Source: Thioploca sp. (lineage in GTDB: Bacteria; Pseudomonadota; Gammaproteobacteria; Beggiatoales; Beggiatoaceae). From it: 46,994 nt of DNA. Positions 149-46,869 of this stretch are shown one piece after another; within the stretch, counting starts at the first letter, position 1, and each line of letters opens with the position of its first letter. The stretch covers positions 1 through 46,994 of the forward strand of contig DAOUSL010000008.1 of NCBI GenBank assembly GCA_030627235.1, read 5' to 3'. A model generated the notes under the pieces. The model had not been told where the DNA came from and did no database searches. It saw nothing but the letters and a program-made list of their open reading frames with translations. The position numbers and the translations under genes were made by a program.

Positions 149-1105
149 TTATTTGATAGAGGTTTTTTTGAAAATATTTTTTCCCAAAAGATAGCCTATA
201 ATTACTCCTAAACCTAATTCTGTTAAAACAGTCCACATACGAAATAATAAACTTAGAAAAATTGCTTGTTCTAATGGCATAATTTGTGACAAAATAATGC
301 TAGATATTGATTCTCTTACTCCTATACCAGCAGGTGTAAAAAATGCGAAAAATCCTACTGTTATGCTTATTGTATTGGCTAAAATCAGCCAAACGATTAT
401 TGTTAGATTAAATTCATTTTGGGTCATAAAAATAAAATATATTCCACTGAAAATACAACCAGATAAAATCCAGATCATCATATAAAAAATTAATAAACGA
501 AGATAATTACGCTGGGTTATTATTTCTTCTATTTCTAATATATTTTTTTCAAAATAATTCATTAAAAAGTTATATGTTTTAATTAAAAAAAGTTGAATAT
601 ATCTTCCTATAAATCCACTTAATAAAATTATAATTATGAGTATATAAATCCACTTTGTTTCTATTAAAAATACAATGGTTATAGAACTTACAACTACACT
701 TGCATGTATTAGTAATATCTGTTCTTGAATACTTATGACAAAAATTTTTTTAACATCAATCTTAAGTTCTTTTAATTGAGCACCACGAGCTATCATTCCC
801 CAAATTTTCCCTGGTATATATTTACCAACACTAACAAGCACTAATTGAGAAAAACCTTGAAAAAGAGAAATAGAAACATTAGAAGTAATTAACAGTAAAT
901 ATTTCCAGGTAAAACTAGCTGTAATCCAGAATAAAATAGTGAGAAAAATCGTCAAAAAGAAGAATATCCATGAAAAATAGAGTGGTTTTGAAACATGCGC
1001 TATTTGTTCAAGTAAATAATTTAGGATGAAAATAGAACTACAGATCAAAAAAGCTACCAGCCAAAATTTTTTGACCAAATTAAACAGGCTTGTTTTTATA
1101 TTCAA
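149..1105 (-). CDS. Flippase-like / LPG synthase TM-domain membrane protein
   Basis: A 318-residue integral membrane protein with about eight hydrophobic segments and no soluble domain. Motifs GKYIPGKIWG (near residue 94) and FTPAGIGVRE (near 256) are typical of the lysylphosphatidylglycerol synthase transmembrane / UPF0104 (YbhN, AglD-like) family. Members are inner-membrane proteins, some acting as lipid flippases or in surface-glycan assembly. The catalytic aminoacyl-transfer domain of MprF is absent, so lysyl-PG synthesis is not expected. The only available start is TTG, since an in-frame TAA lies four codons upstream and there is no internal Met near the N-terminus; no clear Shine-Dalgarno (SD) is visible. 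It lies 84 bases downstream of rnfC on the same strand, but no functional link is evident. Family is fairly sure, substrate unknown. Confidence 0.75.
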   Translation of the reverse strand: MNIKTSLFNLVKKFWLVAFLICSSIFILNYLLEQIAHVSKPLYFSWIFFFLTIFLTILFWITASFTWKYLLLITSNVSISLFQGFSQLVLVSVGKYIPGKIWGMIARGAQLKELKIDVKKIFVISIQEQILLIHASVVVSSITIVFLIETKWIYILIIIILLSGFIGRYIQLFLIKTYNFLMNYFEKNILEIEEIITQRNYLRLLIFYMMIWILSGCIFSGIYFIFMTQNEFNLTIIVWLILANTISITVGFFAFFTPAGIGVRESISSIILSQIMPLEQAIFLSLLFRMWTVLTELGLGVIIGYLLGKNIFKKTSIK

Positions 1106-22988: not shown

Positions 22989-24350
22989 TTACATTACCTG
23001 TAATGTTAAGTTCTTTCCAGTAGAAAAGTTAATAAAGTATACTATAGCAGATGCAAATAATTTAGCATTTTCATCGGTAAACTTAGACAAGATTATATCT
23101 TGAGTTCCATTTAATCTAAGTTTCCATGTGTTAATAAATTTAAGATTTTGCTCAGATACTAATTTAATTTCAAATATTTCATCAAAAGACAAACGCTGTG
23201 TAGTACCTGATATATTTTTCCAGTCAATTGATTTAGATAATAAATTTTTCCATATAATGGCTTGATCTGTCAATGCAATACCTCTAGAATTAGATAATAT
23301 ATATCCAGTATCAAAATAAAACTTGTAAAGCTCATCTTTATTACGAGATGATTCGAATAATTTTATATCAGCTTTTAAGTTACTACCAGCAAATTTAAAA
23401 CCTAAATTACGAAATAAATGAGTAGAAAGTACTATCTTAAAATTACGATAACTATCTGATTTATTTTCTGGATGAGAAAATATTTGAGTTACCAATTTAT
23501 TTAATAATTTATTATCTTCTTTTGATATTTCTAAATTACTACAATTAGATACAGATTTAGATAAACAAGCATCCAATAATTGTAATGATGTTATTGATGA
23601 TTGCTTTACGTTTTGATTATTACATAAAGTAATCCAGCCTGCTAAAATGGATTGTTCTTTTTCTGGGATAATCAATTTTATTGGTTCTGAACCAATTTGA
23701 TTAAAATTAATAAAATAGATTATCGCTTTAGCTAAAGTTGTGATAGCTTTTTCAGAAATTTTTGACAAACGAATATCATGATCATTATTAATTCGTAACT
23801 TCCAACCAGTTAAAGATAAACCTCGTTCATAAATTAAAGCAATACTGTTTATTTGGTCAAAAGATAATCGCTGGGGTTTGTTTGCAATATTTTTCCATAA
23901 AATAGCTTTGTTCGTTAAGGCAATACCACGTGAAAATGGTAATATACGTCCAGTATCATAGTAAAAATAATATTTTTCTTCTGCCTTGTATAATTTAGGA
24001 AATAATTTATTTTTGGGATGTTGAAAATAATCAGCAAATTTAAATTCTAAACCTTGTAAATAATAGTAGTTTTCAATTACACTTTGAAAATTACGATAGC
24101 TATCTTCAAATGTCGATACATCATCCAATACTAATACTTGTTCAATTATTTCATCTAAAGCTAATAAATCTTCTGACAATGGTTGTGGCTTAATTTTTGT
24201 CAAACAACTACCCATCAATTGTAATGCACTTCTATAATTACCTTGGTCTTTGAATGTTTGTAAGGTTCGTAAATCATTGCATAATACAGTAGCAGAAATA
24301 TTCATTGGTAACCATAACAAGATAAACCAATATTTATACAACTTATCCAT
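22989..24350 (-). CDS. Exported protein with full-length internal duplication
   Basis: 453 residues of unrecognised family. The N-terminus (LYKYWFILLWLPMNISATVLC) looks like a signal peptide, possibly with Cys24 as a disulfide or lipid site. The mature part is two copies of about 200 residues. Each begins with a Cys-bearing helical stretch (CNDLRTLQTF at 24; CNNQNVKQSS at 243), then DSYRNF (83, 299) and a domain with YYDTGRILPFSRGIALTNKA (from 130) or FYFDTGYILSNSRGIALTDQ (from 344), RLSFD(Q/E)I, W.LR.N and (I/V)YFINF. The second part of each unit, with its beta pattern and terminal helix, recalls bacterial PH-like domains; that is inference. It lies 47 bases downstream-strand from a c4-type cytochrome gene and may share its transcript. 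Confidence 0.75.
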   Translation of the reverse strand: MDKLYKYWFILLWLPMNISATVLCNDLRTLQTFKDQGNYRSALQLMGSCLTKIKPQPLSEDLLALDEIIEQVLVLDDVSTFEDSYRNFQSVIENYYYLQGLEFKFADYFQHPKNKLFPKLYKAEEKYYFYYDTGRILPFSRGIALTNKAILWKNIANKPQRLSFDQINSIALIYERGLSLTGWKLRINNDHDIRLSKISEKAITTLAKAIIYFINFNQIGSEPIKLIIPEKEQSILAGWITLCNNQNVKQSSITSLQLLDACLSKSVSNCSNLEISKEDNKLLNKLVTQIFSHPENKSDSYRNFKIVLSTHLFRNLGFKFAGSNLKADIKLFESSRNKDELYKFYFDTGYILSNSRGIALTDQAIIWKNLLSKSIDWKNISGTTQRLSFDEIFEIKLVSEQNLKFINTWKLRLNGTQDIILSKFTDENAKLFASAIVYFINFSTGKNLTLQVM

Positions 24351-24397: not shown

Positions 24398-24982
24398 TTA
24401 TTTACAAGTATTAGATTTTTGAGCGGCAAAATAAGCGGCAATATTTTCAATATCAGTATCATCACTAAATAATAAAGCCATTTGAGACATTTGTGATTCT
24501 TGTCTACTACCGTTTTTATAAGCCTGCATAGCTTTGATCAAATATGTTTTATGTTGTCCAGCCAGTTTTGGGAAAAAAGGTAATGTGCTATTACCATCTG
24601 GTTCATGACATACTGCACAAGATTCAATTTTTCTTCTGCCTGCTTTTACTTGAGGAGTTTGAGGTTGTTGAATACAAATATCAGACTTTTGGGAAGCAAA
24701 ATGAGCAGCCAAATCTTCAATATCATTATCATCATTAAAATATTTTTTTGCTATCGTATACATTGTAGGCACATCTCTAACTTTATCTCGATAATCTTTC
24801 ATAATTTTAATAAGATATAATTCATGTTGCCCTGCTAACTTTGGATATATCGGAATTTTACTATTACCATCTATAGTATGACAACTAATACAATGAATTG
24901 CTTTAGTTTTACCAACTATAGGGTCTCCAGCGGCATAGACAGTATTCAATAACAATAAGCTTATTATAACAAAAATTTTCAT
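24398..24982 (-). CDS. Di-haem cytochrome c, c4-like
   Basis: A periplasmic electron carrier. I start it at the ATG at 24982 (194 residues, MKIFVIISLLLLNTVYAAG as signal peptide); a start seven codons earlier adds HGYPKH before the signal and sits in a hairpin. Two class I haem domains have CISCH and CAVCH, each followed by YPKLAGQHELYLI or FPKLAGQHKTYLI, and a distal Met lies in each half (MYTIAKKYF; MSQMALLF). The two halves are homologous, as is usual for c4. It follows another c4 gene by 46 bases; together they could pass electrons from the quinol pool to oxidases. Confidence 0.88.
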   Translation of the reverse strand: MKIFVIISLLLLNTVYAAGDPIVGKTKAIHCISCHTIDGNSKIPIYPKLAGQHELYLIKIMKDYRDKVRDVPTMYTIAKKYFNDDNDIEDLAAHFASQKSDICIQQPQTPQVKAGRRKIESCAVCHEPDGNSTLPFFPKLAGQHKTYLIKAMQAYKNGSRQESQMSQMALLFSDDTDIENIAAYFAAQKSNTCK

Positions 24983-24997
24983 ATGTTTTGGATAGCC

Positions 24998-25014
24998 GTG
25001 CATAAAATATGCAC
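24998..25014. promoter_or_regulatory. Hairpin between two cytochrome genes
   Basis: GTGCAT and ATGCAC pair around AAAAT in the 46-base gap between the cytochrome genes. It may stabilise or separate the two messages. Confidence 0.3.
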
Positions 25015-25028
25015 AGCATTATCTAACT

Positions 25029-25625
25029 TTATTTAGCTATTGCTTCTGCTACAGCTTTTATATCAGCTTCAGTTATAGCTTTAACATCTGCATGTCCAGC
25101 CATCTCTGCTGCGTTACCATTAGTACGTTTTCCATCTTTAATATCTTTAGTTTGAGCAATTATATATTCTGCATTTTGCCCAGCTAATTTAGGAGCTATA
25201 CCTTTAGCTTCTGCACCTTGAGACTGACCGTCTGCACCATGACATTTAACACAACCTTTATCAACAAATGCTCCACCAATATCTCCTTCTTTAGCATCAG
25301 ATGGTTGAGCAGCTATCCATCCTGAAATAGCTGTTATATCGTCATCATTAAGGCTCATTGTGAAAGGAAACATAGTTCCAGTTTGGCCATTGCTACGTGA
25401 TTTATCTTTAATATGCTTAGTTTGGGCAGCAAGATATTCTGCGTTTTGACCAGCTAACTTAGGGTAAATAGGTTGAATTGGAGTTTTAGCATCAGCACCA
25501 TGACAAGTATTACACAATTTTTGTGTATATAAAGTTCCGCCATCAGCAGCAACTGTTACATTGCTAATAGCCAAACCACTAACTGCAACTAAACCAATAC
25601 TTAAAGTTTTTAAAATGGATCGCAT
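25029..25625 (-). CDS. Cytochrome c4
   Basis: A 198-residue periplasmic di-haem cytochrome, starting at the ATG at 25625 with AAGAGAG eight bases before it; a TTG seven codons upstream is less likely. The signal peptide ends near VTVAADG. Haem sites are CNTCHGADAKTP and CVKCHGADGQSQ, each followed by PKLAGQNAEYI/L. Axial Met candidates are in GTMFPFTMSL and AAEMAGHADV. The length and two-fold pattern fit c4, which feeds electrons to terminal oxidases such as cbb3. It is the first gene of a likely two- or three-gene unit. Confidence 0.93.
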   Translation of the reverse strand: MRSILKTLSIGLVAVSGLAISNVTVAADGGTLYTQKLCNTCHGADAKTPIQPIYPKLAGQNAEYLAAQTKHIKDKSRSNGQTGTMFPFTMSLNDDDITAISGWIAAQPSDAKEGDIGGAFVDKGCVKCHGADGQSQGAEAKGIAPKLAGQNAEYIIAQTKDIKDGKRTNGNAAEMAGHADVKAITEADIKAVAEAIAK

Positions 25626-25992
25626 TAATAAATCTCTCTTAATCAATATGGGGTTGTTAAAATATAAGTTTGGAGCAAAACTCGCTCTAATACTATTTTA
25701 CAATGTAAGTTGCTTATTGCAAAATTTATATTAAATATTATGATCATTAATGATATTAAAGTTGTGATATGATATGTAGTTTTAATATTTGAATTATACT
25801 AAATTTTTTATTTATAACATGGTATTATATTTTTAATATACTTAGCTTTAAACGGTCATTATCTAAATGTGATTTATTATTTAAAAACAGTATATGAGTA
25901 AAAATTTTGTACTAAAAAGCACTAAAAAATTAGTTATTATTGACTATTATCAAGCAATCTTTAGATTCATTTCACAAAATATATGAATTACT
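25626..25992. other. Intergenic divergent promoter region
   Basis: 367 AT-rich bases between cytochrome c4 and the DUF4173 gene. A 30-codon frame at 25894-25986 (MSKNFVLKSTKKLVIIDYYQ) has no ribosome site and is probably chance. I see no clear repeat or paired promoter boxes. Confidence 0.4.
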
Positions 25993-27507
25993 ATGAATTA
26001 CTTAGAAACCGAAATAACCAATCAAACAATAATTGGCTTAATTATTTTAATAACTAGTTTATTAATGGGAATTATAGGAATATTTTTATTTGATGGCAAG
26101 ATTTTAGGATTTAATATTACTCTATTTGGTTTATTATTAATCACTTTTATATTAATTATTAGAATTCTTAGCCAGTTATATATGGATTATCGAGAATATA
26201 TCTTGATAATAACTGGGATATTTTTCACTCTATCCTTAACTTGGAGAGATTCGTTAGTATTAAATAGTTTGAGTTATTTAGGATTACTATTAACAATTAG
26301 TCTAGCTTTTAATGCTGGTACTAGACCAAAGTTACGTCATCTTGAAATTTCTCAGATACTCCAAGATTTTTTATTATCTATTCAATATGGTATTCGTAGT
26401 TATCGTGAGTTAATACATGAAGATATACAATGGAATGAAGTTGAGAATCGGTGGGGAGAAAATGTTCATTCCATTTTTAGAGGATTAATGGTTACTATCC
26501 CAATGTTGTTAATTTTTGGATTATTATTGGTAGGCTCTGATGCTAGATTTGAGCAAATAGTTTATGATTCATTAGATTGGGGATTAAGTGAAGAAGCTGT
26601 ATTACGTTTTGGAGCAATATTTATTATATGTTGTTGGTTTTCCATAGCTATATTACGTGGCACTGTGTTAACCAATAGTTTAATTGATGAACCCAAAAAA
26701 TTATATTTACCAATTTGGCGACTTGATTGTATTGAAACTGGAATGATACTTGGGGCAGTTAATTTATTATTTTTAAGTTTCATCGTAATCCAATTTACTT
26801 ATTTTTTTGGTGGAGATATTTTAGTACAATCTTCAGATGGATTAACATATGCTACATATGCTAAACGTGGATTCATACAATTGATATCAGTGACTTTATT
26901 GGTAATAATCTTGTTGATATTTACTCATTGGTTATATCGACCATATAGTCAATTTGAAAAAACACTTTATCAATCTTTATCCATAATAATGATAATCATG
27001 AGTATAACTATAACGGTTTCAGCGGCACATAGAATGTACTTATATACCAGTGCTTATGGATTTACCGAGTTGCGTTTTTATACCAGTTTTTTTATGTTAT
27101 GGCTAATAGTACTATTTATTTGGTTTAGTTTTACCGTATTACGTGGTAAACGAACCCAGTTTATTTTTGGAGCTATTGTAAGCGGCATGTTTTTTATAGC
27201 CTCATTACATGTTATAAATCCTGATGCTCGAATTGCAGAATTTAATTTAGATAATTTACAAATTGAACAACGTTTTGATGTTCCTTATCTAGCTTCTTTA
27301 AGTACAGATGCAATTCCCGTAATATTAGCTAATATAGCATATATCGAAGAAAAACCACGTTGCCAATTATGGAGCTATTTAAATAAGTTGCCTGTTTTAC
27401 AAATAAATAAAGATTGGCGAGCATTCAATTGGTCTCAATATCAAGCTCAAATATTATGGTCAGAACAATTGAAACCAAATTGTAGAATTACATATAGTTC
27501 TTTATAA
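25993..27507 (+). CDS. DUF4173 (DUF4153-like) multi-pass membrane protein
   Basis: 504 residues with about eleven hydrophobic segments. Family signs are a first loop after TM4-6 (NAGTRPKLRHLE), and the C-terminal half with SAAHRMYLYTSAYGFTELRF, TVLRGKRTQFIFGAIVSG and HVINPDARIAEFNL, which match DUF4173. The last 120 residues are a soluble tail with DVPYLASLSTDAIPVILANI. Function is unknown for the family; it is usually an inner-membrane protein next to regulators. It stands alone and converges on the 1402-residue membrane protein. No good SD precedes the ATG. Confidence 0.8.
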   Translation: MNYLETEITNQTIIGLIILITSLLMGIIGIFLFDGKILGFNITLFGLLLITFILIIRILSQLYMDYREYILIITGIFFTLSLTWRDSLVLNSLSYLGLLLTISLAFNAGTRPKLRHLEISQILQDFLLSIQYGIRSYRELIHEDIQWNEVENRWGENVHSIFRGLMVTIPMLLIFGLLLVGSDARFEQIVYDSLDWGLSEEAVLRFGAIFIICCWFSIAILRGTVLTNSLIDEPKKLYLPIWRLDCIETGMILGAVNLLFLSFIVIQFTYFFGGDILVQSSDGLTYATYAKRGFIQLISVTLLVIILLIFTHWLYRPYSQFEKTLYQSLSIIMIIMSITITVSAAHRMYLYTSAYGFTELRFYTSFFMLWLIVLFIWFSFTVLRGKRTQFIFGAIVSGMFFIASLHVINPDARIAEFNLDNLQIEQRFDVPYLASLSTDAIPVILANIAYIEEKPRCQLWSYLNKLPVLQINKDWRAFNWSQYQAQILWSEQLKPNCRITYSSL

Positions 27508-27864: not shown

Positions 27865-30800
27865 TCAAGCTTTTTTCATTGGAGCGGATTCTCTAAACCG
27901 AAATTTTGTATTTTTCCATAATCCACCACTACTGAAACATTTCCATCCCCAACTAAACCAACGTACTAAAGCAAAAGATAACCATAAAGCCCACAATAAC
28001 ATAGCTATCCGGTACACCCACATAGATAAGGAAAATACCCATACTTGTGGCAAAGTTCCATTAGTACGGTCTTCATACCATAATAAAGAATAAGCATCAG
28101 AACCATTACCAGCAATGTGCATATCTGGATGACCTAATAAACCTTGTTCAATCGCTGCTAACATGATACCCATAGTAGTTAACGTTAAAAAAACTAAACT
28201 TATTTGAGTCAAATTAAATTTCCATGTATTAGTATTTTCGATAGACATTTTTTGGCGTAAACCCAAGGTCATAAACCAACTTACTACTATTAATAATGCT
28301 ATAATATTTACTTGACTTAGCACTATTCCTAATAATAACCAATGCAAGGTATTTAACGGAGTCAAGGTAACTTTACCTAACCCAAATGCTGCTAGAGCTA
28401 TTACAATTAAAAATCCCCATACCATTACGGCTGGCCCTATTAAACCACCACCCGTAAACAATATCCATCTTTCAGGCATATTAAGCTTAATATTAGTGTT
28501 AACACTGTCCATACCAAGTTCAACTTGTGGCGTTTTAAAAATATTCATCATGCCAGTTGGCTGTTGAAACTGTAATTCAATTTTTTGGACACCAGGGTTA
28601 ATTGGAATAATTACTGAACTTCCATCTTGGCGAACTGGTTGCACTACATCATTAATTTTAACTAATTGTAAATTAGCATCATCTGGTAAAACTAACTTAT
28701 GTTGCATTCCACGACTACTTCGTAGATTTAATGATAAAATACTATTAGTAGTGCGTTGGCCTGGGTTTATCACTAATTCACTGCGATCAATAGTTGCTAT
28801 CTGTCCACTCATACCTTCTGGACGAGTAAGATGTAAAGTTACTTTTTCATTTGGCCAAGGTCGCCATTCTGGTAACCAACGTCCGTCATTTTGATGTTGG
28901 ATCACCGGAATTCCTTCAATTTTAACATGCCATATTGCACTTGCATCCAACCGCCACACTTCATTACTAAAAGCATTATTTATAGCAATCAACGTTATAT
29001 CGTTTTGTTTATCAAATATGGAACTCCAACTAATTTCCTGTTGGTTTGGAGATAAATTAATTAAAGCTTTACCATTAGCAACTCGAATTTTTTCACTAGT
29101 CACCGATTCTCCATCCAACAATGGAATTTCCAACACAATTGCACTACCTAAAGCAGTTTGTCGGATTACTTGAGTTAATATTTGCCAGTCTAAACCCAAT
29201 AATAAAGTTCGTTCAATTTGCACAAATGGTGGCAACTCACCCATTTCCAATTCAGCTAAACTATCATCTTGTTCACGAGTAAATTGTAATTGTTTATCTA
29301 CAACTCCATTTTCATGCAGACCTTCAATTCGCCAACCATTATTCGTTGTTACAGTTACAGAATGAGGTCTTAATGGCAATGCTAATTGAATGGTATTACG
29401 TTTTGGTAAAGTACCAACTATTTGGATTTGATGAATACCTTGTTTAACATCTAGCCATAATTGACCATTATTATCCCTTAATAAGCTTTGAGCTGACTTA
29501 CCATTTAGCCAAACTTGTTCTGGTAGCCATTGTTTAGCAGTACCTGGCAAAGGAATTGCCGTATCTGCCAAACTGTGAAGTTCCATGCGAATATGTAATT
29601 GAGCTGGGTGTAATTCCATTGATAAACGTGGCAAACTAGCACAATAAGGCAGACATTCTGGTGGTTTTGCTAAACGTTTTTTTAATTCATCTAACATATT
29701 TTGAGGTGGAAAATTATTGATAACTAAACTTTTATTATTATCCGATTTGTCTAAATCATCTGCAATAACGTTAGGTTTTTCAAATAACTCGTTCATTTCC
29801 TCTTCTTCCATTTCCTCTGTGCTTTCTTCTGAACCAATTAATAAACTATTCATATCATCAGCTTGACTAGTGAGAGGTAAAAGTAAGAATAAACCTACGC
29901 TTAAGATAGCTATACTACTAAATCCTTTAAAATTAAACCTAAATTTAGTTTTAGAACCCCAAGCTATCCATAAAAAGAATACTGTTAATAAAGTTAATAA
30001 GATCACACGCATTATTCCTAAAAAACTATTGATAGTTGGAGATAATAACCATAATTTTACGGATTGATTTTTTTGTACTGGTCCACTCCAACGCATATTT
30101 ATACCCTGCCATTTCCATTGCGGTAATCCAGGCCCAGTTTGAACTTGGGCATTAGGATCAATTTGTAACAGTTTTTTCCGTGATTTTTCTTTATAATAGG
30201 ATTTAGAATAACCACTTATGCTATTTTCTAACATTGGCTTATATGCTAATTTTTGTCGTGCTGAACTGGCAATATCACTTGTTGTCGGAATAGGATATGC
30301 ATGTGGTAGATTAGCAAAATTAGGATATGAAAAATTTTCTTCTAAATTAATATGAGGCCGTTCTAATTGTGGATAAATACTCTGTCGCACTTGTTGCATC
30401 ATAAATGGTAATATAATAATAATTAAGCCAATTAAACTAATATTGCGATATAGACGGATAAAACGAGTAAAAATTCCCAAACTTGGTAACACTTTTAATA
30501 AAGCTAAAGAAGCAATAATGTGTAACCAAATCCAGTGCGGAGCTTTAGTTTCATGGTAAATTAATATCATAGTTACTAAAGTTAATATTCCCCAGCGCCA
30601 ATGCCATAATTTACTTACTGCTACTGCCATTATTAATACTATAAATAAATCTAGCAATGTCCAACGTTTTAACCAAGTTTTTGGAATATTATCTACTCCA
30701 GTAGCGTTCCATAATCTCCAACCAGGCGGTAAATGTAGAACGGCACTAACTTTCTGAAAATCATGATCCCAACCAACAGCTGGTAATTGACTCAAATTAT

Positions 30801-32073
30801 GTTCTAAGCGACTATCGGCAACTAAATCAATTTCGCCACGTCGTACTTCCACTCCAGTATTGCTATTTTTATCCAGACGAGTGATAAACTGATCTTTACC
30901 ATTAACTGCCACTCTTCCTAACACTGCTGGTTCATCCATCTCTAATCTCCAACCACGAGTCATCGTGCCACTAATACGATCTTGAACACTATAACCTTCT
31001 CCATCAAAATCTAACCAAAAATTACGTTCCAAAGTTAATTGATCTGGAACTGGATCGGGATCACCACGTCGTTTTTCGATAAATTTTAAAGTATCACCAC
31101 TTCGCACCTGATAAGCTGGAAATTTACGCCATTCTGTAGGTAATGAAGTTTGTTGTGGATCAATTGCTGTTACTCCAGTTATTTCTACTAATCGTAAATC
31201 TCTTTTAGATTCGAAAGTCCATATTTCTGTATCAACCCATTGAGAATCAGCAGGAGTTAAGGTGATTTTATCTACCATACCGAGTTGCCGAGTTTGTAAA
31301 TTTAACACCCAAGAACCAGGCCGTACTTGAATTCTTAAATGACCATCAGTTTCTAATCTAGTTGGTAATGGGCTATTTAAAAACATAGCTTGTTGTTGTT
31401 TTAAGATAATCGGGCCTAACACAACTTCACGATGCCGACCTGATACATCTAGTTCTATACGGGTATTAATTTTTAATGGAATATCATCAGTTATATGCCT
31501 ATAAACTCTTAAATCCAAACGATTTTCTTCGGATATATTACTAGAATAACTCCCAGTCTGACTTAACCATAAACGTCCTTTAGCATCAAATTGTGGTATA
31601 GTTATAGGAGAATTATTAAGAGTTAAAGTGATTAAACCAGTATTAATTGGAATCGTTAAATATTCTGGTCTGTGTTGCCAATCAAATTGACCTTGAATAT
31701 TTATTTTGCCTTTTGTTACAAATAAACTAGGAATATCATTACGATCTGCTACTATGGCATCTTTACCATTTATTTTGACATTTTGTGGCCAATATTTAGC
31801 GTCTCCTGGTAATTGTATCCAACCATTTTTATAAATTTGCCATTGTTGACTAAACTTAGCTTGTTTAGATTTAACATCTAATAATAAATTTGATGGCCAA
31901 ACACAAATTGCCGATTGCTTATTATTTAACTGATTATAATAAACTGGACAGTCTGCCATATCGCTCGTTACCCAATCAACCCAAGGTTGTAATGGTGATG
32001 GAATATCATTAGGCTGTAATGCCCAAGTTGATAAACTTATTAAATATAATCCTAATAAACTGTGTTTTAACAT
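27865..32073 (-). CDS. Very large membrane protein of unknown function, two related halves
   Basis: 1402 residues; I do not recognise the family. A signal peptide (MLKHSLLGLYLISLSTWALQ) leads to a periplasmic beta-rich region (about 20-465), then a membrane block of about five segments (472-560), a linker, two more segments (683-705, 719-737), an acidic linker (741-780, EESTEEMEEEEM), a second beta-rich region (about 800-1215) and six or so C-terminal segments. The second half opens like the first: C..Y....C, then LPGDAKYWPQNVKINGK (88-104) against LPGTAKQWLPEQVWLNGK (842-859), with RLWL/QLWLDV following. Just before the second half lies LFLLLPLTSQADD, which resembles an internal signal peptide. 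It may be an ancient fusion or duplication. It is transcribed alone, with GGATTT before the ATG. Confidence 0.75.
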   Translation of the reverse strand: MLKHSLLGLYLISLSTWALQPNDIPSPLQPWVDWVTSDMADCPVYYNQLNNKQSAICVWPSNLLLDVKSKQAKFSQQWQIYKNGWIQLPGDAKYWPQNVKINGKDAIVADRNDIPSLFVTKGKINIQGQFDWQHRPEYLTIPINTGLITLTLNNSPITIPQFDAKGRLWLSQTGSYSSNISEENRLDLRVYRHITDDIPLKINTRIELDVSGRHREVVLGPIILKQQQAMFLNSPLPTRLETDGHLRIQVRPGSWVLNLQTRQLGMVDKITLTPADSQWVDTEIWTFESKRDLRLVEITGVTAIDPQQTSLPTEWRKFPAYQVRSGDTLKFIEKRRGDPDPVPDQLTLERNFWLDFDGEGYSVQDRISGTMTRGWRLEMDEPAVLGRVAVNGKDQFITRLDKNSNTGVEVRRGEIDLVADSRLEHNLSQLPAVGWDHDFQKVSAVLHLPPGWRLWNATGVDNIPKTWLKRWTLLDLFIVLIMAVAVSKLWHWRWGILTLVTMILIYHETKAPHWIWLHIIASLALLKVLPSLGIFTRFIRLYRNISLIGLIIIILPFMMQQVRQSIYPQLERPHINLEENFSYPNFANLPHAYPIPTTSDIASSARQKLAYKPMLENSISGYSKSYYKEKSRKKLLQIDPNAQVQTGPGLPQWKWQGINMRWSGPVQKNQSVKLWLLSPTINSFLGIMRVILLTLLTVFFLWIAWGSKTKFRFNFKGFSSIAILSVGLFLLLPLTSQADDMNSLLIGSEESTEEMEEEEMNELFEKPNVIADDLDKSDNNKSLVINNFPPQNMLDELKKRLAKPPECLPYCASLPRLSMELHPAQLHIRMELHSLADTAIPLPGTAKQWLPEQVWLNGKSAQSLLRDNNGQLWLDVKQGIHQIQIVGTLPKRNTIQLALPLRPHSVTVTTNNGWRIEGLHENGVVDKQLQFTREQDDSLAELEMGELPPFVQIERTLLLGLDWQILTQVIRQTALGSAIVLEIPLLDGESVTSEKIRVANGKALINLSPNQQEISWSSIFDKQNDITLIAINNAFSNEVWRLDASAIWHVKIEGIPVIQHQNDGRWLPEWRPWPNEKVTLHLTRPEGMSGQIATIDRSELVINPGQRTTNSILSLNLRSSRGMQHKLVLPDDANLQLVKINDVVQPVRQDGSSVIIPINPGVQKIELQFQQPTGMMNIFKTPQVELGMDSVNTNIKLNMPERWILFTGGGLIGPAVMVWGFLIVIALAAFGLGKVTLTPLNTLHWLLLGIVLSQVNIIALLIVVSWFMTLGLRQKMSIENTNTWKFNLTQISLVFLTLTTMGIMLAAIEQGLLGHPDMHIAGNGSDAYSLLWYEDRTNGTLPQVWVFSLSMWVYRIAMLLWALWLSFALVRWFSWGWKCFSSGGLWKNTKFRFRESAPMKKA

Positions 32074-32279: not shown

Positions 32280-33239
32280 ATGTCTATACAAGTTAATTTA
32301 TCTTTAATTGAAGATAACCCCCAACAAATACCAGAAGAAATTGAACGTCTTGGTAAAGATACTCTAGAAATTATTTGGGAAGCATCCCAAGATATTGCAG
32401 AAAAAGAAATAGAGTTAATAAAAGTCCGTTACCAACAGTATAAAAATGAAATTATTTACCAACGTCAAGAAACTTTGAATAAAATTGAGGTAGTTAATGA
32501 TGAATTGACTATTGCTAATAAATTTATTGGTGGCTTAAAACGGGAAACTAAATCCTTAAAAGTTGACCTTGATAGCAAAATTTCTGAACTAAAAAGTGCT
32601 GCTGATCAAGTAGATATTTTAAAAGAAAAACTGGCTCAATTAGAACAAGAAAACCAACATTTAAGTGAAGAAGTTGGCAGATTGCGAGAAAGCAACGATA
32701 ATATGCAAAGGCGTTTGTATGAGTCTAATCGTTTAGCTGAACAAAATAGTGCTGCCCTTAAAGAAACTAGAGAAGAATTAGTTGTTATTCAACATAACAG
32801 TGAACGCTTAGAAAAAGAACTTAAAATTTCAATTAGTGAAGCACAAGATGCTTGGCAAAAGCTTAAACAAGAAGAAAGACGTTCGGCTGTGGCTGAAGCA
32901 TTAGTACAAGAAATGCGAGAAACAGTACAGAAATCTGAAAAAACTATAAAATTTTTAAATGAAGAAAAACAAGATACTAAATCTAATTTAACTACTGAAA
33001 ATAAGGCTAGAATGGAATTAGAGAAAAAAATTTCTACGGTAACTGCTCACTCTGATTCTCAGGAATGGGCTTACAAAGAAATGCTATCTAAAGTAGAACA
33101 TGATTTAAGTATGAGTCGTAGTGAATCTGCTGGTGTAAGAAAACGTATGATTAGTGCTGAAGCTGGTTTAGAACGGGAACAAAAAATTAGGGAAAGTTTG
33201 GAGACTAAACTAATTGCAAGTCATGAAAATAAATTATGA
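32280..33239 (+). CDS. Coiled-coil protein
   Basis: 319 residues, with a short N-terminal domain (about 1-50, IPEEIERLGKDTLEIIWEAS) followed by an almost continuous heptad-rich coiled coil to the end (LAQLEQENQHLSEEVGRLRE and onward). There is no signal peptide or membrane segment. The plan (small N-terminal domain plus long coiled coil) recalls plasmid KfrA-like or cytoskeletal proteins, but no DNA-binding motif is clear, so I leave it unnamed. No SD precedes the ATG. It lies 29 bases before the phosphoesterase gene on the same strand and may be co-transcribed. Confidence 0.65.
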   Translation: MSIQVNLSLIEDNPQQIPEEIERLGKDTLEIIWEASQDIAEKEIELIKVRYQQYKNEIIYQRQETLNKIEVVNDELTIANKFIGGLKRETKSLKVDLDSKISELKSAADQVDILKEKLAQLEQENQHLSEEVGRLRESNDNMQRRLYESNRLAEQNSAALKETREELVVIQHNSERLEKELKISISEAQDAWQKLKQEERRSAVAEALVQEMRETVQKSEKTIKFLNEEKQDTKSNLTTENKARMELEKKISTVTAHSDSQEWAYKEMLSKVEHDLSMSRSESAGVRKRMISAEAGLEREQKIRESLETKLIASHENKL

Positions 33240-43862: not shown

Positions 43863-45038
43863 ATGTCTTATACTGAAATTACTACTGAATCTTGGTGGAG
43901 TCGAATAAAAAGTTCTTTTAAAAATATTATACTAGGCTTAATTTTATTTTTAGTGGCATTTCCATTATTATTTTGGAATGAAGGCAGAGCTGTATATCGA
44001 GCTCAAACTTTAGAAGAAGGTATTCGTGTCGTTACTTCTATTGAGGCTAATCAAATAAATAAAAAAAATGAAGGTAAATTAATTCATTTAACTGGTAATA
44101 CTGAATCAAATGAAACTTTATCTGATATTCGATTTGGGATTAGTCAGGATAATATTATTAAATTACGCCGTTTAGTCAAAATGTACCAATGGCAGGAACA
44201 TCAAGATTCAGAAACTACAGAAAAACTTGGTGGAAGCACAGAAACAGTAACAACTTATAATTACAGTAAAAATTGGGATAGTAGTATAGCTAATTCTAAT
44301 AATTTCAAACAATCAGAAGAGCATCAAAATCCATCTACAATGCTATTTAATTCAGGTATTTTTCAAGTAAAACAAGTAACCATTGGTGCTTTTACTTTAC
44401 CATCTAGTTTAGTAAGTCGAATTAATAATTATCAAAAATTACCAATAACAACACTTGAATTAGTTTCAGAAGAGATTAGAGATAAGTTACAAATTTATGA
44501 TAATGCTTATTATATTGGAGAAAATCCTGCCCAACCACAGATTGGTGATTTAAAAATAAGTTTTGAGATTGTCACACCAAGTATGATAAGTATTATTGTT
44601 AAACAGGTTGGTTCAACTTTTAGTTCTTATACTACTAAAATTGGTGGAAAAATTGAATTATTTGAGTATGGTAATGTTTCGGCTGAGAATATGTTTCAGC
44701 ATGAGCAAGAATTTAACGTTATGCTAACTTGGATACTTCGAGCAGTAGGTTTTTTGATTATGTTTATTGGCTTAAGCCTTATGTTTGGGGTATTAAGAAC
44801 CCTAGCTGCTGTTATACCATTTATAGCAAATATAGTTGGTTTTATTGGTGGCTTCGTTGCTTTTTTAATAGCGCTAATATTATCCTTAATTACTATTGCA
44901 ATCGCTTGGTTTGTCTATCGTCCTTTGCTAGGTATATTTTTATTAATTATTGCTGGTAGCTTGTTATATGGCTTGTTATATTTCTCAAAATCTGCTGGTA
45001 CAGAAGAAACTATAACTATTACGGAAACAGTTGGTTAA
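43863..45038 (+). CDS. TMEM43 family membrane protein
   Basis: 391 residues. The N-terminal segment (LGLILFLVAFPLLFWNEGRAV) and the following soluble region with LIHLTGNTESNE and FGISQDNIIKLRRLVKMYQWQE match the TMEM43 family (LUMA in animals). Three to four C-terminal segments (about 285-385) complete it. Bacterial members are uncharacterised. It lies 53 bases after cheW with its own AGAGAAA site and may or may not belong to the chemotaxis transcript. Confidence 0.85.
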   Translation: MSYTEITTESWWSRIKSSFKNIILGLILFLVAFPLLFWNEGRAVYRAQTLEEGIRVVTSIEANQINKKNEGKLIHLTGNTESNETLSDIRFGISQDNIIKLRRLVKMYQWQEHQDSETTEKLGGSTETVTTYNYSKNWDSSIANSNNFKQSEEHQNPSTMLFNSGIFQVKQVTIGAFTLPSSLVSRINNYQKLPITTLELVSEEIRDKLQIYDNAYYIGENPAQPQIGDLKISFEIVTPSMISIIVKQVGSTFSSYTTKIGGKIELFEYGNVSAENMFQHEQEFNVMLTWILRAVGFLIMFIGLSLMFGVLRTLAAVIPFIANIVGFIGGFVAFLIALILSLITIAIAWFVYRPLLGIFLLIIAGSLLYGLLYFSKSAGTEETITITETVG

Positions 45039-45657: not shown

Positions 45658-46869
45658 TTATATAATAGCATCATTTTCATAGTTTGTTTCTATACCAACA
45701 GTTGTTAATGTCAGCATAAACATATTACCAAACATTTTGCTATAACTGAGCGAATATCCATAATTATTATTTTCTTCTTCATCAATATCAGCATTTACAA
45801 TAACTTTAATGAATTCAGAACTTTTCAATGGAATCGTAAAAGCATTTTCAAGCCCATAGTAATCATTTTCAGCAGAACTGTTTTTATATACTAAAGATGA
45901 ATTAAACCTAAAACTATTAAAGTTATTTTCAAATGGTAAGATAAAAGAATATTGATTATTTCCTTTTGTTTTAAAACGATTATAAATTAAACCTAGTTTA
46001 TACCCAGACCTTGTTGTATAACCGACAGAAGCAACAAAATTATAGTCATCATCACTATTATTACCACTAGAACCCGATCCTGAATTATTTCCAGAACCTG
46101 ATCCTGAATTATTTCCAGAACTTAATTCTCCATCATCTCCAAAACTCAATCCATTACTGTTTCCTGTACCAGTATGATTTCCAGAATTAGAATTTGAAAT
46201 ATTAATTGTATTACCGTAAGCAATCCCAAACAGAATATTATTACGCAAATATGAGTAATCGAATCCTCTTACCTTCTCTACACCAGAATTTTGTAACGGA
46301 CTTTTATACTTGTTTGATCCTTGTATTGCTTCATCACTGTTTAATCCTGCTAAAGCTCCAGCTCTTTTTACATTTCCTAATTGAGTTAATGGTGATAATA
46401 ATCCGGCTCTTAATACATGAGTATTCCCTTGTGGATTATACTGCAAATAATATCTAGAACCTTTATCATCAAAAAATTCTGGACTATTTTGACCTGAATT
46501 ATTAGATATTTCCTTTATAATGCCATAAAAAGAAAGTGTTTTTGTAAGTGAACCAGTTAAAAATAACTTAGTTTCTGTCTGGAATTTATCATCAGAATCA
46601 TAATTTAACCCAACAACTGCACCAACAGGATAATGCCTATCTTCATTAGCTGAAGATTTATCCAAAGCCGTTATTTCATCTTTAGATAGTCTAAATCCAT
46701 TTCTCAAGAACATCATCCCAAATTCATTTAATGCTGGTTGTCTTGTATGACAAGTAACACATTGCAATGAATATTGTCTAGCAAACACGGGAGTTGCATT
46801 GACGCTCTGTAAAAATAGTAACAATACTAATATTATACTTATTTTTAAGCTGTTTTGTATATTTAACAT
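45658..46869 (-). CDS. Mono-haem c-type outer-membrane (porin-like) protein
   Basis: 403 residues. The signal peptide (ILVLLLFLQSVNA) is followed by one haem site, CVTCH (37-41), in the phrase PVFARQYSLQCVTCHTRQP then LNEFGMMFLRNGF, a known N-terminal module of exported mono-haem proteins. The rest alternates amphipathic strands (YGIIKEISN, YYLQYNPQG, FNSFRFNSSLVYKN), consistent with an outer-membrane barrel. A Gly/Ser/Asn-rich insert lies at about 222-270. It could place a haem at the cell surface for electron transfer; that is inference. No SD is visible before the ATG. Confidence 0.75.
   Translation of the reverse strand: MLNIQNSLKISIILVLLLFLQSVNATPVFARQYSLQCVTCHTRQPALNEFGMMFLRNGFRLSKDEITALDKSSANEDRHYPVGAVVGLNYDSDDKFQTETKLFLTGSLTKTLSFYGIIKEISNNSGQNSPEFFDDKGSRYYLQYNPQGNTHVLRAGLLSPLTQLGNVKRAGALAGLNSDEAIQGSNKYKSPLQNSGVEKVRGFDYSYLRNNILFGIAYGNTINISNSNSGNHTGTGNSNGLSFGDDGELSSGNNSGSGSGNNSGSGSSGNNSDDDYNFVASVGYTTRSGYKLGLIYNRFKTKGNNQYSFILPFENNFNSFRFNSSLVYKNSSAENDYYGLENAFTIPLKSSEFIKVIVNADIDEEENNNYGYSLSYSKMFGNMFMLTLTTVGIETNYENDAII

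Follow-up and report, generated by a model that had tools for sequence, protein, structure and literature searches.

A duplicated bacterial membrane protein from Thioploca sp. with an internal signal-peptide-like segment and a predicted Ost1-like fold plan

The FbcH protein of Bradyrhizobium is a cytochrome b/c1 precursor that is cut at an internal signal peptide: one bacterial gene gives two exported membrane proteins via an internal signal sequence. In another bacterial protein, the inner membrane protein CreD, membrane helices come after a beta region located in the periplasm. Ost1 (ribophorin I) belongs to the yeast oligosaccharyltransferase (OST), where it is a non-catalytic subunit thought to hold the glycosylated peptide; it has a single membrane helix and, on the luminal side, two beta domains that resemble each other (PMC7226087). 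A sequence survey assigned OST1 to eukaryotes and, among archaea, to the TACK and Asgard groups (PMC11417166). Here, we analyse a gene from Thioploca sp. that encodes two homologous halves with a signal-peptide-like segment between them. The gene lies on contig DAOUSL010000008.1 of assembly GCA_030627235.1, which was studied as one stretch of 46,994 nucleotides (positions 1 to 46,994, forward strand; hereafter the window). FbcH is unrelated to this protein, and its two products differ from each other, whereas the two products expected here would be duplicates. The papers listed by our literature searches include neither a description of this two-half family nor an account of any bacterial family with an Ost1 fold plan in two copies linked through an internal signal peptide.

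The gene is a single open reading frame (ORF) of 1402 codons starting with ATG, and it is indeed the largest gene of the window, as the original prediction had stated: of the 41 ORFs with 100 or more amino acids, none is longer (Table 1). On the plus strand across 27865-32073, stop codons close the frame read. The ATG is preceded by TAGGAT. Half 1 (residues 20-712) was compared with half 2 (residues 738-1402) in hhalign, first with a 27-row alignment built from the window protein and single-ORF relatives in related genomes. The probability was 97.9 and the E-value 3.9e-13 over 485 columns. The 72-row alignments A2 and A3 gave a probability of 95.1 and an E-value of 3e-8 over 513 columns, versus 0.05-0.54 for the controls (2 reversed and 10 column-shuffled); the set of 72 relatives was obtained from 75 by dropping three for length, and L087 was excluded from A2 and A3. 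The half-half significance arises because the beta regions carry the signal: compared alone, they gave an E-value of 5.5e-8, and the membrane parts alone gave 0.038. The protein is thus a duplication with two homologous halves, as had been proposed from its repeats.

The two halves had also been said to open alike, and most of this likeness stood. LPGDAKYW (residue 88) in half 1 and LPGTAKQW (residue 842) in half 2, each followed by NGK (residues 102 and 857), and the cysteine pairs 42/57 and 807/811 are found at equivalent positions in the half-half alignment; together with Cys1379, these are all the cysteines of the protein. The motif (R/Q)LWL has to be removed from the list, since hhalign places QLWL of half 2 against PSLFV of half 1, and the protein contains LWL at four places. 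Each half follows a common plan: an export signal and a cysteine pair come first, then beta domains spanning about 450 residues, and finally four membrane helices, a beta hairpin and one more helix. This plan and the homology of the halves support the proposal of two related exported membrane proteins in one reading frame.

Between the halves, at residue 728, lies LFLLLPLTSQADD, which the original prediction had singled out as signal-peptide-like. In the 73 aligned rows (the window protein and 72 relatives), the segment following the fifth helix contains basic residues, a hydrophobic core and a small-x-Ala motif. With a strict pattern ([AVGST]-x-A followed by a polar residue), the motif was present in the internal segment of 66 of the 73 rows, but at the four other helices whose ends would face outside in the topology we assume, it was found in only 1, 0, 6 and 4 rows (11/292 in total). 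The N-terminal signal peptide had the strict motif in 40 rows. A loose pattern ([AVGSTLI]-x-A) matched the internal segment in 72 and the N-terminal signal peptide in 70 rows. Among the rows with a short linker (n = 50), 42 have an alanine three residues ahead of a conserved proline. The layout of the segment is alike in a more distant relative encoded on an Azoarcus plasmid. The internal segment had a mean column identity of 0.228; the beta regions reached 0.489 and 0.488, and values for the remaining helix groups were 0.375-0.655. Low conservation combined with a retained cleavage grammar fits a signal peptide that is removed. Judged by these sequence features, the segment is very likely an internal signal peptide, and we infer that it is probably cleaved.

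The segment could instead be an eleventh membrane helix of a single, uncleaved polytopic protein, returning the second repeat to the correct side of the membrane, and the repeats would then form a pseudo-symmetric transporter or channel. Two parallel repeats, each of a periplasmic domain and five helices, would suit a transporter, and the window, like 26 of the 30 other related genomes that carry the gene, has it as one ORF of more than 1300 amino acids. However, a packed helix is expected to conserve its packing residues, whereas this segment is the least conserved of the hydrophobic elements and has kept its small-x-Ala motif. In addition, the AlphaFold confidence for the segment is low (mean predicted local distance difference test score (pLDDT) of 43-76 per ten-residue block), and one genome, G025, manages without a covalent link between the halves. 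We regard the single-protein explanation as unlikely.

In G025, the two halves are separate intact genes on two contigs, each flanked by other genes; separate halves had been suggested as something to look for, and this is the one genome in which they were found. Its half 1 protein (713 amino acids) stops right after helix 5, and the gene has retained a divergent coiled-coil neighbour. Its half 2 protein (685 amino acids) has its own N-terminal signal peptide, with a Shine-Dalgarno-like GGAG upstream of the gene. In this lineage, the covalent link is therefore dispensable. Since the one-gene state is the rule in every sampled lineage and fused forms occur in deep phyla as well, the split in G025 is probably a later fission and not the ancestral state. 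All 72 full-length aligned relatives are one-gene forms, although this set was selected by length and split forms could not appear in it. Other apparent split copies were rejected on reading their coordinates: we took those in G265 and G063 as frame changes located away from the internal signal peptide and those in G332, G335, G144, G220, G389 and G019 mostly as contig ends, leaving G025 as the only clean split. In G023 (L041 8756-11368), an ORF carrying a DDE_3 transposase domain breaks the homologue close to its first membrane helix, and this copy is therefore uninformative on the junction between the halves.

Structure prediction, which had been put forward as a check on the repeat, gave the same order of elements in both halves. 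In the AlphaFold models of half 1 and half 2 (mean pLDDT 82.4 and 84.4), the beta domains are followed by four helices, then by a hairpin of two strands and lastly by helix 5, and the predicted helix-hairpin-helix order of the membrane parts is identical. We read the periplasmic region of the half 1 model as three beta domains. When the models were searched with Foldseek, the four best matches of half 1 were yeast Ost1 (best E-value 6.6e-7), and the eight best matches of half 2 were all ribophorin I/Ost1 entries (best E-value 2.7e-9). The matched PDB chains were identified as the Ost1/ribophorin I subunit from the entries and their chain names, the result rows giving the titles of the complexes. 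VIA-align likewise ranked Ost1/ribophorin I first for both halves, superimposing half 1 on yeast Ost1 with Z 12.6 and a root-mean-square deviation (rmsd) of 5.7 over 299 aligned residues, and half 2 on ribophorin I/Ost1 with Z 15.6 over 306 aligned residues and an rmsd of 26.3 Å. These predicted structures make an Ost1-like fold plan of each half likely.

The third beta domain of each model also resembles the saddle-type N-terminal domain of M1 aminopeptidases, at the level of the predicted fold only. This domain matched half 1 at 341..678 of the model (Z about 11) and half 2 at 381..642 (Z 14.1, rmsd 3.1, 151 aligned), the best rows having an rmsd of about 3 Å over 144-151 residues. Unlike the M1 domain, the third beta domain is split by four membrane helices. 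Because the M1 match spans both sides of the helices, our reading is that the four helices interrupt the last beta domain of the models at an equivalent place in both halves, which would make the insertion older than the duplication. Profile-profile comparison with M1 N-terminal regions was not significant (E-values of 0.034-0.61; regions from 22 of 30 fetched loci), and no M1 family, including the Peptidase_M1 catalytic domain, was detected in a Pfam scan of the window protein and 22 A1 members. Profile-profile comparison with CreD (PF06123), from a profile of just five loci, gave no significant match (E-values of 0.47-0.9). Weak sequence-only matches in the PDB (a toxin chain and acyltransferases, E-values of 0.56-1.4) were discarded as chance.

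Like the predicted fold of each half, Ost1 consists of consecutive beta domains followed by a membrane helix, but there are differences. The present family is bacterial and has two modules in one precursor; each half has a predicted extra N-terminal beta domain with a cysteine pair and four helices within the last beta domain. The cytosolic helical C-terminal domain of Ost1 has no counterpart, as the window protein ends about 20 residues past the last helix.

Taken together, we somewhat favor the following explanation of the whole, in which the gene encodes a polyprotein-like precursor. Half 1 would be exported through the N-terminal signal peptide and anchored by five helices that end in the cytoplasm. 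The internal signal peptide would then re-enter the Sec pathway, and signal peptidase I would cut after Ser-Gln-Ala, giving half 2 a free N-terminus. Half 2 would be a second protein of beta domains and five helices, so that each half would share its fold plan with the luminal region and anchor of Ost1/ribophorin I, apart from four additional helices set into the last beta domain. Made in a 1:1 ratio, the chains would most likely remain paired as a pseudo-symmetric heterodimer in the inner membrane. Their large periplasmic beta domains may bind or hold a substrate or a partner enzyme in envelope biogenesis, as the non-catalytic Ost1 does.

Several observations speak against this two-chain explanation. 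A small-x-Ala motif followed by a polar residue also occurs at helix 1 (27/73 rows) and helix 5 (21/73 rows), whose ends are placed in the cytoplasm, and since the rows are related, the motif counts are not independent events. If uncleaved, the segment would act as a membrane helix. Compared with Ost1 over the whole chain, the models reach low TM-scores (half 1, 0.34-0.35 by target length; half 2, 0.17-0.29 among the top eight), which indicates a shared domain plan and not a close match, and we read the large rmsd of half 2 as a different domain arrangement in its model. No Ost1 chain appeared in a PDB profile search up to an E-value of 10, the protein had no Pfam match, and Ribophorin_I (PF04597) was absent from its genome. 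The likeness to Ost1 is one of predicted folds and may reflect descent or convergence. Finally, no conserved neighbor indicates a pathway; the adjoining genes are generic and variable.

STT3 (PF02516), the catalytic subunit that would be the natural partner if the protein worked in an OST, also bears on this. Co-occurrence was counted in 40 of the 54 genomes that carry the gene and in 40 of the 315 that lack it, and STT3 was found in 1/40 carriers and 1/40 non-carriers, with none in the genome of the window. An accessory subunit of a bacterial oligosaccharyltransferase (PglB/STT3-type), truly homologous to Ost1, would agree with the ranking of Ost1/ribophorin I ahead of all other PDB chains for both halves. 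But on these counts we rejected an OST partner as a general role, and with neither an Ost1 sequence match nor an Ost1-like cytosolic C-terminal domain, such a subunit is very improbable.

In the same genomes, EpsH (PF09721) was present in 23/40 carriers versus 12/40 non-carriers (Fisher p 0.024, uncorrected and not phylogenetically independent). This and the spread of the family across environmental Gram-negatives would be expected of a component tied to exosortase/PEP-CTERM surface sorting or exopolysaccharide. However, 17/40 carriers, including the genome of the window, had no EpsH match, and exosortase was not among the 25 commonest neighbor families listed; the association is too weak to build on, and we consider such a component improbable. 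The divergent coiled-coil neighbor of the main gene was matched in 19 of the 113 loci searched, duplicates included, which collate to 14 different genomes with that of the window counted in, and it is conserved among close relatives only; no curated family exceeded the cut-off for this protein. No family recurs widely in the surroundings of the gene. When 20 nearby proteins were scanned one by one, each was either generic or had no family. Among 104 neighbor proteins (two from the window) selected out of 247, the commonest Pfam group was methyltransferases, with eight members coming mostly from one cluster of methanotroph loci. On the other side, a DUF4153 membrane protein (25993-27507, +) is convergent with the main gene; among the 113 loci, it is found in the window's copy only.

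Returning to the two-chain precursor, analogy with Ost1 tentatively suggests that two matched, periplasm-facing chains act as a non-catalytic scaffold or substrate holder. More doubtful is the broader proposal of a widespread bacterial family of Ost1-like proteins: signal peptidase I would cut the duplicated precursor at its internal site, and the two chains would assemble in the inner membrane into a non-catalytic complex of two modules, a counterpart of the Ost1 module by descent or convergence.

Table 1 Position of the gene, its predicted parts and the divergent neighbor in the window
Feature	Coordinates	Strand	Basis
Whole gene, putative two-chain membrane protein precursor (stop codon included)	27865..32073	-	ORF; relatives in 31/57 related genomes, own included
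N-terminal signal peptide, residues 1-19	32017..32073	-	Hydropathy; small-x-Ala past the core in 70/73 rows
Half 1 periplasmic region, residues 20-460: N-terminal helix, Cys42/Cys57, three predicted beta domains	30694..32016	-	AlphaFold, most blocks pLDDT >85
Half 1 membrane helices 1-4, residues 470-566, predicted inside third beta domain	30376..30666	-	Secondary structure of model; M1-like match on both sides
Half 1 beta hairpin, residues 656-677, predicted to complete third beta domain	30043..30108	-	AlphaFold model, M1-like domain match
Half 1 membrane helix 5, residues 679-705	29959..30039	-	Hydropathy, AlphaFold model
Probable internal signal peptide, residues 713-738, putative signal peptidase I site after Ser-Gln-Ala738	29860..29937	-	Motif counts, conservation
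Half 2 from putative mature N-terminus, residues 739-1206: acidic linker, Cys807/Cys811, predicted beta domains	28456..29859	-	AlphaFold model, motif positions
Half 2 membrane helices 1-4, residues 1212-1312, predicted equivalent insertion point	28138..28440	-	AlphaFold model, structure alignment
Half 2 beta hairpin (1329-1350) and fifth membrane helix (1351-1381), predicted	27931..28089	-	AlphaFold model
319-amino-acid coiled-coil protein, divergent from main gene	32280..33239	+	tblastn, match in 19/113 loci

Further genes of the window are recorded here in their own right. A 453-amino-acid, exported-looking protein (22989-24350, -) contains the stretch FYFDTG...SRGIALT...IWKN twice, as read by eye, and had no Pfam family over the cut-off. 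Two adjacent cytochrome-c-like genes have duplicated heme motifs (24398-25646, -); of these, the gene at 24398-25003 was covered by the family scan. A TMEM43-family protein (43863-45038, +; PF07787, E-value 1.3e-81) is encoded behind a chemotaxis-type gene cluster, and a 403-amino-acid protein (45658-46869, -) with an N-terminal CxxCH and a low-complexity SGNNSGSG stretch had no Pfam family.

The gene could not be named from sequence by the original prediction, and this agrees with our searches, as no model in Pfam, NCBIfam, PHROG or PADLOC covers the protein. A defense or phage origin was rejected, since the protein matched nothing in PADLOC or PHROG and no phage record turned up. A scan of a genome collection found relatives in at least 528 genome loci; the 80 retained include members of Gammaproteobacteria (Thiotrichaceae, Methylococcales, Oceanisphaera), Desulfobacterota, Nitrospirota, Myxococcota, Acidobacteriota and Magnetococcales. 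Carriers made up 54/369 sampled genomes in the class of the window and 9/198 in the phylum of Desulfonema magnum. The plasmid relative is a single record, Azoarcus pAZKH, annotated as a hypothetical protein. Full-length rows were 41-88% identical to the window protein, and identity between phyla was mostly 41-50% across about 1400 residues. A quick tree roughly tracks taxonomy, with the deep phyla partly mixed; L131 entered it with a wrongly chosen ORF and forms the long branch.

The family is large, strongly conserved and nameless in the curated libraries searched, and its role may lie in the cell envelope of methanotrophs, sulfur bacteria and other groups. If the internal signal peptide is cut, this would be a conserved bacterial precursor that yields two duplicated membrane proteins. 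The match of the predicted folds makes it possible to test whether bacteria have a relative or look-alike of ribophorin I.

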